Positions 27,603-29,714 of a stretch of 50,244 bases of DNA are shown here, in pieces (the stretch's first letter is position 1; every line of letters starts with the position of its first letter). The notes under the pieces were generated by a model. It did no database searches, was not told the DNA's origin, and saw only the letters and a list, made by a program, of their open reading frames with translations. The translations under genes and the position numbers were made by a program. The stretch comes from Candidatus Woesearchaeota archaeon (lineage in GTDB: Archaea > Nanobdellota > Nanobdellia > Woesearchaeales > DSVV01): positions 1 through 50,244 of the forward strand of contig JAGVYW010000033.1 in the NCBI GenBank assembly GCA_018303075.1, in the 5' to 3' direction.

Positions 27603-29111
27603 ATGGGCATTTCAACAGATCCTTCAATAGACCAAATTATTGTTAAGATAGGTGGAAGCAGCTTGGCAATAGCTGAGCACTTTCAGATGGCTTATCAATT
27701 ATATCATGCAGATAAAAGAAGAAAATTCTTTGTAGTTTCTGCGCCAGGTGTAGGTGCGAAGAAAAGTAATATCAAGTATAAACTAACAGATCTGCTTATT
27801 TCTCTTGCAGATAGATATGAAACAGACCATTATGGAAATAAAGCTGCTGCTGTAGAAGCAAAAGGTTTGGAACAGTATGATAAAAATAGTTTAGAATCAT
27901 TAGTTATGCAAATATTTGAAGAGATGGGTGCTTTTCTTGGTTCTGCAAATCCTGCAAATCCTGTTCGTGAACAATTGCAGGCTGCATTGAATGACTTTTC
28001 TTCATCAGATTCAAGGCAGCATTCTGCTAATGTACAAAGATTAGGGGAAGCATTTTCTCAGGAAATACTTTATCAATTATTTAAAAGAAATGGTATTGAA
28101 AATGTTAAAAAATTATCAGCTGCTGATTTTCTTGTTGTTAATGGAGGCAATCCTCTTGATGGTGTTGTTTACTTAGATAATACTCTTGATAATCTTAGAA
28201 GATGGAAAGCTGGCAGTAATTTTGATCCTGAATGTGTATATATTGTTGATGGCTATAATGGCAGAACTGTTGATGGCGGTGTTTCATTGCTTGCAAGAGA
28301 TGGTACAAATAAAACACAGGTTTTGTTGGCAATTGGTTTAGATATTCAATATTGTGAGAATATAAGTGATGTTGAACGTATCTTTTCAGTCAATCCAAAG
28401 CTTGTAGAGAATCCAAGACCAATTGAATCTATCACAATACGAGAACAGATTGAGCTATCTGCGAGAGGCTGTGGAAAAGTGTTTCAAGCATCTGCGCTTT
28501 CATTAATGCAGCAAGCTGGCATTTATCCAACAATTGATGTAAAATCATATGCAAATGCTGACAAAACAGGTACATTGATAGTATATACGCGAAATCATTA
28601 TGAAACTCCATTAGTTGGCATTGGCTTGCGAGAAGCAGTAACAAATATTACAATTACTGATCCAACAATGGCAGATACTCCAGGGTATGTTGCAAAAGTT
28701 CTAGAACAAATAGCACAGATGGATATTAATCTTTTGCATATGCGTTCTGGTGAGAATCAAATCACTTTGTATATTGCAGATGATTCTTATAAAGGAAAGT
28801 TTAGACCAGATGAGATAGTTAGTAGAATTTCAAATAATACTGGAGTAAATAGTAATGCTATTGAAGTAGAGTATAATAAATCAATATTAGGTGTAATCGG
28901 TGAGGGGATTGATGCTAGGTTACAGCATAAGATACAAGGTGTATTGCTTGATAATGATATTAGGATGCTTCCTTATGTTGATAGTTCAAGTGTTAGTGTT
29001 TATTTTGTTGTTCATAGAGAAGATGCTAAAAAAGCAGCAAATGTTTTATATAATGCATTTTTTAAACAAGACGAATTCCACTTGTCTATTGACAGGTGGT
29101 GGAATTCGTAA
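27603..29111 (+). CDS. lysC: Aspartate kinase
   Basis: The 502-residue enzyme starts with the kinase motif VKIGGSSLA (K15, G17, G18, S19) and contains the helical insert typical of monofunctional aspartokinases, then GGVSLLARDGTNKTQVLLA and the substrate segment SDVERIFSVNPKLV. Two ACT domains follow (about 340-410 and 420-490), where lysine or threonine usually bind for feedback control. It makes aspartyl phosphate. No other gene of the pathway is nearby. The last ten residues (HLSIDRWWNS) lie beyond the usual end of the ACT domain and are encoded by a hairpin. Confidence 0.92.
   Translation: MGISTDPSIDQIIVKIGGSSLAIAEHFQMAYQLYHADKRRKFFVVSAPGVGAKKSNIKYKLTDLLISLADRYETDHYGNKAAAVEAKGLEQYDKNSLESLVMQIFEEMGAFLGSANPANPVREQLQAALNDFSSSDSRQHSANVQRLGEAFSQEILYQLFKRNGIENVKKLSAADFLVVNGGNPLDGVVYLDNTLDNLRRWKAGSNFDPECVYIVDGYNGRTVDGGVSLLARDGTNKTQVLLAIGLDIQYCENISDVERIFSVNPKLVENPRPIESITIREQIELSARGCGKVFQASALSLMQQAGIYPTIDVKSYANADKTGTLIVYTRNHYETPLVGIGLREAVTNITITDPTMADTPGYVAKVLEQIAQMDINLLHMRSGENQITLYIADDSYKGKFRPDEIVSRISNNTGVNSNAIEVEYNKSILGVIGEGIDARLQHKIQGVLLDNDIRMLPYVDSSSVSVYFVVHREDAKKAANVLYNAFFKQDEFHLSIDRWWNS
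29071..29109 (+). repeat. Hairpin at the 3' end of the aspartate kinase gene
   Basis: ACGAATTCCAC (29071-29081) and GTGGAATTCGT (29099-29109) are perfect 11-bp arms. The interior adds TTGTC/GACAG pairing around TATT. The stop codon begins at the last base of the right arm, so the repeat encodes the C-terminal tail. It may be a terminator hairpin or an inserted small palindromic element. Confidence 0.55.
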
Positions 29112-29162
29112 GCGTCAAGAACCACCTTAGGTGTTATCGATAAGCATGCCACTGGTTTATAA

Positions 29163-29393: not shown

Positions 29394-29538
29394 ATATCAT
29401 AATTCATAAAACAGGTGTTCTAATATAAAAATGTATTGGAAATAATTTTTTTGCAAAGACAAAAAAATTAAGATTTAGGGATTCTGGATTGTGGTAATCA
29501 ATAACTATAATAATAACTTACTATTTTTCTATGTAAAT

Positions 29539-29612
29539 GCCCGTGTAGTATAGCTTGGATAGTACACAGCCCTGCGGAGGCTGTAGCCGGAGTTCAAATC
29601 TTCGCACGGGCG
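29539..29612 (+). tRNA. tRNA-Arg (anticodon GCG)
   Basis: All four arms pair. The acceptor stem is GCCCGTG (29539-29545) with CACGGGC (29605-29611). The anticodon stem CAGCC/GGCTG encloses the loop CTGCGGA, giving anticodon GCG for CGC/CGU. The T stem CGGAG/CTTCG surrounds TTCAAAT. The discriminator is G29612 and CCA is not encoded. No intron is present. Confidence 0.93.
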
Positions 29613-29614
29613 TT
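29593..29614 (+). repeat. 22-bp direct repeat, copy 1 (tRNA 3' end)
   Basis: The T-loop to acceptor part of tRNA-Arg plus two bases (TTCAAATCTT...CGGGCGTT). An exact second copy lies at 29693-29714. tRNA 3' ends are the usual attachment site of tyrosine-recombinase elements. Confidence 0.8.
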
Positions 29615-29618
29615 AATC

Positions 29619-29648
29619 GTGTGGCTCTTACGAAGTAAGAAGCCACAC
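29619..29648 (+). repeat. Strong hairpin after tRNA-Arg
   Basis: GTGTGGCTCTTAC (29619-29631) pairs with GTAAGAAGCCACAC (29635-29648), a 13-bp stem with one bulged base and a GAA loop. It is followed by TTGTTTTCTTTTG and may end the tRNA transcript or belong to a mobile-element scar. Confidence 0.6.
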
Positions 29649-29663
29649 TTGTTTTCTTTTGAT

Positions 29664-29684
29664 CAAACTTTTCGTAAAAGTTTG
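29664..29684 (+). repeat. Second hairpin between the tRNA repeat copies
   Basis: CAAACTTTT (29664-29672) and AAAAGTTTG (29676-29684) are perfect 9-bp arms around CGT. With the first hairpin it fills most of the 78 bp between the two direct-repeat copies. Confidence 0.6.
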
Positions 29685-29692
29685 CCGTTGAT

Positions 29693-29714
29693 TTCAAATC
29701 TTCGCACGGGCGTT
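29693..29714 (+). repeat. 22-bp direct repeat, copy 2
   Basis: Exact copy of 29593-29614, displaced by 100 bp. It carries the tRNA T-loop and 3' acceptor strand without the rest of a tRNA, as at an att site after integration and loss of an element. Confidence 0.8.

Follow-up and report, generated by a model that had tools for sequence, protein, structure and literature searches.

The 3' end of a tRNA-Arg(GCG) gene in a woesearchaeotal draft genome is repeated a short distance downstream of the gene, with two hairpins in between. This raises the question of whether an integrated element was once present here and left its attachment site behind, or whether the hairpin-bearing sequence is a tiny element in its own right. 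The genome (G000) comprises 1.24 Mb in 44 contigs, and the stretch of 50,244 bases analysed here is referred to as the window; its genes, which include an archaeal-type tRNA methyltransferase TRM and an EF-1 exchange domain, we take to be archaeal.

Structure of the tRNA-Arg(GCG) locus

The tRNA gene is matched by Rfam at 29539-29612 with 56.5 bits, and at the gathering score the Rfam scan of the window returned the tRNA only and no other family. The exact repeat of 22 bp reported in the first-pass annotation is present letter for letter, 29593-29614 in the 3' part of the tRNA being identical to 29693-29714 at a spacing of 100, and the repeat grows to 25 bp when one mismatch is allowed (X and X' in Table 1). 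Only 75 bp lie between the 25-bp repeats, and the two hairpins described there, with loops GAA and CGT, were both recovered inside this interval by folding. They are designated h1 and h2, and the sequence that carries them is designated E. The 3' arm of h1 at this locus contains one unpaired A. The 81-nt stretch folded as single-stranded DNA gives z = -4.8, and none of 200 shuffles was equally stable.

The tRNA-Arg repeat is the sole case in the window of an exact 20-mer repeated within 300 bp; such repeats were found 0 times in 40 order-1 Markov windows, and the repeat is thus well beyond chance. A third copy of the 22 bp was looked for and is absent from the window. Genes do follow the locus as annotated, under what proved a loose label of envelope cluster: those tested are DUF2062, BatA/vWA, vWA and a MoxR-type AAA ATPase.

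The window also contains, at 29061-29160, another dispersed repeat, about 100 bp long, with 23 matches in G000 (19 at >= 96% identity) and 2 in G001, a second genome of the genus. It possesses a long hairpin, follows TTTAAACAA in 10 of the 11 copies read, and overruns the end of an aspartokinase-like ORF, whose last codons it supplies. This repeat presumably resembles an IS200/IS605-type miniature element, more so than E does.

Table 1. Features of the tRNA-Arg(GCG) locus, in window coordinates
Feature	Position	Strand	Basis
tRNA-Arg(GCG), intact target gene	29538..29613	+	ARAGORN; Rfam RF00005
X, upstream copy of the repeated target, from the T-arm to shortly beyond the tRNA	29590..29614	+	direct repeat, letters checked
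Element E: h1, linker, h2	29615..29684	+	covariance model R1 match
h1, covarying hairpin, GAA loop	29619..29648	+	pair counts over 16 copies
Motif TTTTGATCAAACTTTT	29657..29672	+	8 genome places at <=1 mismatch (7 exact); reversed control pattern 0
h2, 9-bp hairpin, CGT loop; its 3' end marks the fixed right boundary of E	29664..29684	+	folding, letters, other copies
Junction patch, where downstream and upstream copies differ	29685..29692	+	mismatches cluster in first 6 nt after h2, 38 copies
X', downstream copy of the duplicated target, then a T-rich stretch	29690..29714	+	direct repeat; E-free homologue L166

Copies of E in the genus

Further genome copies of the unit, the search for which had been suggested in the first-pass annotation, are present. 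A 301-bp query of the genome returned a partial unit beside a second tRNA, by eye tRNA-Arg(CCT). Exact occurrences of the motif TTTTGATCAAACTTTT number 7 in G000 and 10 in G001, the one further genome searched in the genus; the reversed pattern, serving as control, is absent from both. Most of these 17 places show the order X-h1-h2-X'; L035 has no repeat, and L030 and L037 have a weak repeat only. L029, a copy in G000 with one mismatch to the motif and surroundings like those of L035, shows no repeat by eye.

A covariance model, R1, was constructed from an alignment of 16 copies, the window copy among them, that were picked by h2 or a variant of it; copies with N gaps, the copies of contig C20, and L029 and L035 were left out. 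With 150 candidates scored per genome and the weakest matches regarded as doubtful, R1 gave 19 matches in each of G000 and G001 at an E-value <= 0.1, one of which overlaps another on the opposite strand, and 14 and 15 matches, respectively, at <= 0.001. The window locus is matched at 29605-29685 with 64 bits. E thus forms a family with a common layout; G000 and G001 each have about 14-19 copies, located at tRNA and protein genes. The identity of X varies from copy to copy and includes the 3' end of a tRNA, the 5' side of a tRNA, the 3' end of a protein gene (C38, the host gene being what we take for a TFS-like zinc-finger protein) and the start of a gene (C3).

Hairpin structure of E

E is about 70-90 nt long and consists of h1, a short linker and h2, the last having the form TTTTGATCAAAC.../GTTTG. 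Over the 16 aligned copies 95.5% of cells are paired and 9 of the 19 pairs change on both sides; the covariation score was reached in 0 of 500 shuffles, and on one of the five covariation measures, that of further pair types, the copies did not exceed the shuffles (280/500). Because the pairs of the outer stem of h1 change on both sides (6 of 7) with pairing retained, h1 is conserved as structure more than as sequence. The right end of E coincides with h2, and the left end is not sharply defined. No terminal inverted repeat was apparent by eye in the alignment of 16; in a rough test over 38 copies the ends scored a mean of 4.9, against 3.8 for shuffled ends, with 7.8 the highest value. Rfam identified only tRNAs at 13 E loci.

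Target duplication and its junctions

In the genus 30 R1 loci were returned, of which three lie too close to a contig end, leaving 27 testable. X' was found within 12 nt of h2 at a score >= 14 in 24 of the 27, against 15 of 536 controls, and at a score >= 20 in 23 of the 27, against 2 of 536. Those missed at score 14 are L209 (13.4) and two loci, L211 and L213, that possess h1 and no proper h2. Eleven of the 27 copies lie outside the model alignment, and the repeat is present in nine of these. The genomes are drafts, and several E copies are located at contig ends.

Across 38 copies with a score >= 12 and X' near h2 (25 from the genus and 13 from other genera) the repeat is 19-122 bp long. The right junction is fixed, with X' beginning about 0-5 nt past h2, while the left end varies along with repeat length. 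In copies at tRNA genes, read by eye, the start of X' lies in the T-arm or close to it. Mismatches between X and X' affect 29% of positions over the first 6 nt of X', compared with 6-12% in later bins, and 29 of the 38 copies show at least one within these 6 nt; these junction mismatches are in part an edge effect, as the alignment was extended ungapped to h2. Mismatches fall mostly at nucleotides 3, 4 and 6 after h2 (17, 16 and 14 of 66).

At protein genes the ORF stops 43-63 nt before h2 in all five examined. At four of these, X' repeats the last codons in the frame that opens directly behind h2, and at L196 it does so in another frame; with five protein genes, the codon phase of X' is drawn from too few cases and was set aside as evidence. 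At C38, L185 and L186 the stop codon beside E differs from the stop in X', and E or the junction therefore supplies the stop.

Tandem arrays of E are found on contig C26 and on C28 of G001, each containing one more X than E. The C20 array also ends with X, its left side being cut by the contig end. In L192, L198 and L204, X' holds part of the 5' arm of h1.

Sites without E and comparison of orthologues

The element-free site sought in relatives was found at the tRNA-Arg(GCG) gene of G004 (L166), a genome of another genus in the same family, where GGGCG runs straight into the T-run without E. In G000, the orthologues of two E-bearing sites of G001 (L175 of L039, and L177 of L038) end without E or X', and R1 found nothing in either at an E-value <= 1. 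No G000 orthologues of the G001 sites L032 and L036 were found. Some relatives are thus free of E at the corresponding place. According to the first-pass annotation, relatives with no history of integration but with the same duplication and spacing would have spoken against its reading; none was seen in the relatives compared, G001 having no tRNA before the DUF2062 gene.

The G001 orthologues of C38 and C3 contain an h1-like hairpin in the same place, with no h2 and no X'; R1 gave a weak match at the C3 orthologue only. Here E may predate the split of the two species and have lost h2 and X' since, or the h1-like hairpin may be a resident one. X and X' of C38 and C3 are more alike than expected for an insertion older than the species split. 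Plain insertion does not explain these h1-like hairpins without h2 and X', nor the pieces of the h1 arm in X'. The direction of copying was also considered at L198 by outgroup comparison, by eye. X and X' differ there in eight codons; the G000 orthologue agrees with X at four of them and with X' at the other four, and this evidence is neutral.

Distribution beyond the genus

R1 matches were identified, under stricter filters, in 25 genomes, G000 among them, out of 145 sampled across the order. From other genera 28 loci were fetched (one, from G004, in the same family), of which 27 were testable. The repeat is present at a score >= 14 in 12 of these, against 6 of 584 controls, and lacking in 15; at a score >= 20 it is present in 10 of the 27, against 2 of 584. 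At three loci from other genera (L224, L227 and L228), E is located within an archaeal 16S rRNA gene, in antisense orientation and with no repeat. E is antisense in all three, and is therefore not simply an RNA intron. The rRNA matches at these loci are about 180-340 bp longer than the model. In L219, L220, L242 and L239, E lies by eye within or beside tRNA genes, in or near the T-arm, in both orientations and without a repeat; Rfam called no tRNA at these four loci.

The h2 pattern alone is found in at least 116 stretches of genome contigs, distributed amongst methanogens, DPANN archaea and some bacteria. With 12 sites near ends or N skipped, the repeat was present at a score >= 20 in 25 of 125 bare h2 sites, against 12 of 631 controls. 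In methanogens (L051, L052, L064, L109 and L046) bare h2 occurs in tandem arrays, and in these the sequence preceding h2 appears again behind it. Being widespread, and with the repeat at 25 of 125 sites, h2 alone was considered as the mobile unit; h1 plus h2 was kept as the unit for the order, and beyond it h2 may move alone. Two h2 patterns had no match in viral contigs, and a viral carrier of E was discarded.

Candidate enzymes

No RVT_1 reverse transcriptase profile was found in G000. G001 contains two, and among 19 genomes RVT_1 is present in 3 of the 14 that bear E and in 1 of the 5 that do not; a resident RVT_1 protein, absent from G000 and not associated with E, was therefore rejected as the mover, though a reverse transcriptase of another family or from another source may act in trans. 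The reverse transcriptases at the G001 and G004 loci presumably resemble those of diversity-generating retroelements. Y1_Tnp is represented in G000 by a fragment only, an 87-aa frame that covers profile positions 53-121, and was not found in G001, so that a Y1 transposase was rejected as the resident mover as well. The fragment (C38:62846-63073, L214) and the E copy at C38:61095 are about 1.7 kb apart.

Origin of the duplication

The locus is likely to be one member of a family of gene-less mobile elements, very small in size, that leave a long target duplication of variable length upon insertion. E itself is probably mobile, and the suggestion that it is a tiny element in its own right is borne out by the occurrence of the same unit, in the same layout, at many unrelated gene ends. 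Insertion with target duplication is favoured because host sequence is repeated on both flanks, because some relatives are free of E, and because arrays finish with X and not with E; that the duplication arises during insertion we infer from this comparison.

The attachment site of a lost element, which the first-pass annotation had offered as the other reading, fares poorly and is now very unlikely. Here a tRNA-targeting element with a tyrosine recombinase would have integrated site-specifically and later been lost, leaving attL and attR. Partial archaeal tRNA genes are commonly traced to integrated elements (PMC9897764), the start of X' in or near the T-arm at tRNA copies agrees with such a history, and the mismatch patch at the start of X' would suit a recombinase overlap. 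Lost elements would, however, leave unlike remains, whereas the same 70-90 nt with its covarying hairpins stands between the repeats at tRNA and protein genes alike; the copies read share the same two hairpins while the repeated piece varies by site and includes protein-gene ends. The failure of both h2 patterns to match viral contigs also weighs against it. Replication slippage at a resident, terminator-like hairpin, which would duplicate the sequence later and without transposition, is unlikely, if less so. It would account for the h1-like hairpins without h2 and X' at the two G001 orthologues and in L211 and L213, and for the repetition of X after bare h2 in other archaea and a few bacteria at the frequency given above, with many tandem arrays by eye. 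But slippage would have to copy X and yet drop the second E at nearly every site, the three arrays of the genus read to their right end finish with X and flank rather than E, and L175 and L177 hold neither E nor X'. It is highly improbable that E and X' form a functional unit that is kept, such as a small RNA that matches the end of the neighbouring gene through its 3' part, X', and regulates it. The covarying structure and the near identity of X and X' at many sites, over up to 122 bp, are what such a unit would show, but 29 of 38 copies carry mismatches in the first nucleotides of X', some sites lack X' altogether, and E adjoins unrelated genes.

Under insertion of a mobile E with target duplication, E would land beside a gene end, and 19-122 bp of the host sequence to its left (X) would be present again on its right (X'), so that the gene would stay whole on the X side and X' would remain as a dead copy. 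An ordinary DNA transposase with a fixed stagger is disfavoured because the repeat lengths are spread, and the mismatch patch beside the fixed right end points to imperfect pairing as the way in which this end is joined. Together, the spread in length and the patch would favour a copying process that proceeds from the h2 end into a break with a wide stagger. In such a process, a strand or RNA ending in h2 may pair over about 6 nt, mismatches being tolerated, with one strand of the break, and synthesis may then copy E into the gap in a manner like target-primed copying. The proteins would come in trans from the host or from an element absent from these genomes. Recombination between X and X' could produce the tandem arrays.

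Comparison with known elements

A search of open-licence papers found no description of such an element. MITEs of archaea, for example SMN1 and SM3A of Sulfolobus islandicus, are described in PMC3718332 and PMC10969869 as short, gene-less, dispersed and presumed to be moved in trans, and E is likewise all of these. According to PMC3718332, MITEs have terminal inverted repeats and small direct repeats, whereas E shows no clear terminal inverted repeat and has flanking repeats of 19-122 bp. E would thus behave like a miniature mobile element and yet does not show two features by which MITEs are defined, the terminal inverted repeats and a short target duplication of constant length. REP or GTAG-tagged palindromes, with their REP-associated tyrosine transposases, are like E palindromic repeats between genes (PMC3733652, PMC2817692). 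They differ from E in that long target repeats are present at E and no intact Y1 transposase is found in G000 or G001. IS200/IS605-type miniature elements share with E the two hairpins and the folding of a single strand. They insert at a fixed short target without duplicating it, unlike E with its long target duplication.

Elements integrated in tRNA genes and bounded by attL and attR have in common with E the direct repeat of a tRNA 3' end; between the repeats described here there is no integrase-bearing element, the space being only 75 bp. Eukaryotic SINE-type retroelements share with E the small structured unit, the fixed 3' end and the target duplications of variable length, and E may be said to resemble them in layout. 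They differ in that no RVT_1 was found in G000, and SINE target duplications are usually shorter than those at E. It is a tentative and rather doubtful proposal that E is a prokaryotic counterpart of SINEs, a structured unit of 70-90 nt that would copy itself into widely staggered breaks at gene ends across an archaeal order by means of a predicted enzyme. To our knowledge, no prokaryotic SINE counterpart of this kind has been described.

If the reading of E as a mobile element holds, a gene-less unit would be repeatedly duplicating long stretches of its host beside tRNA and protein genes, and would also be found inside 16S rRNA genes, in archaea of small genome. The E family would then be another source of the 3' tRNA fragments that are otherwise attributed to integrated elements, and assemblies may break at its arrays. 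Should E move by copying without a resident enzyme, it would pose a testable question on how target duplication comes about.
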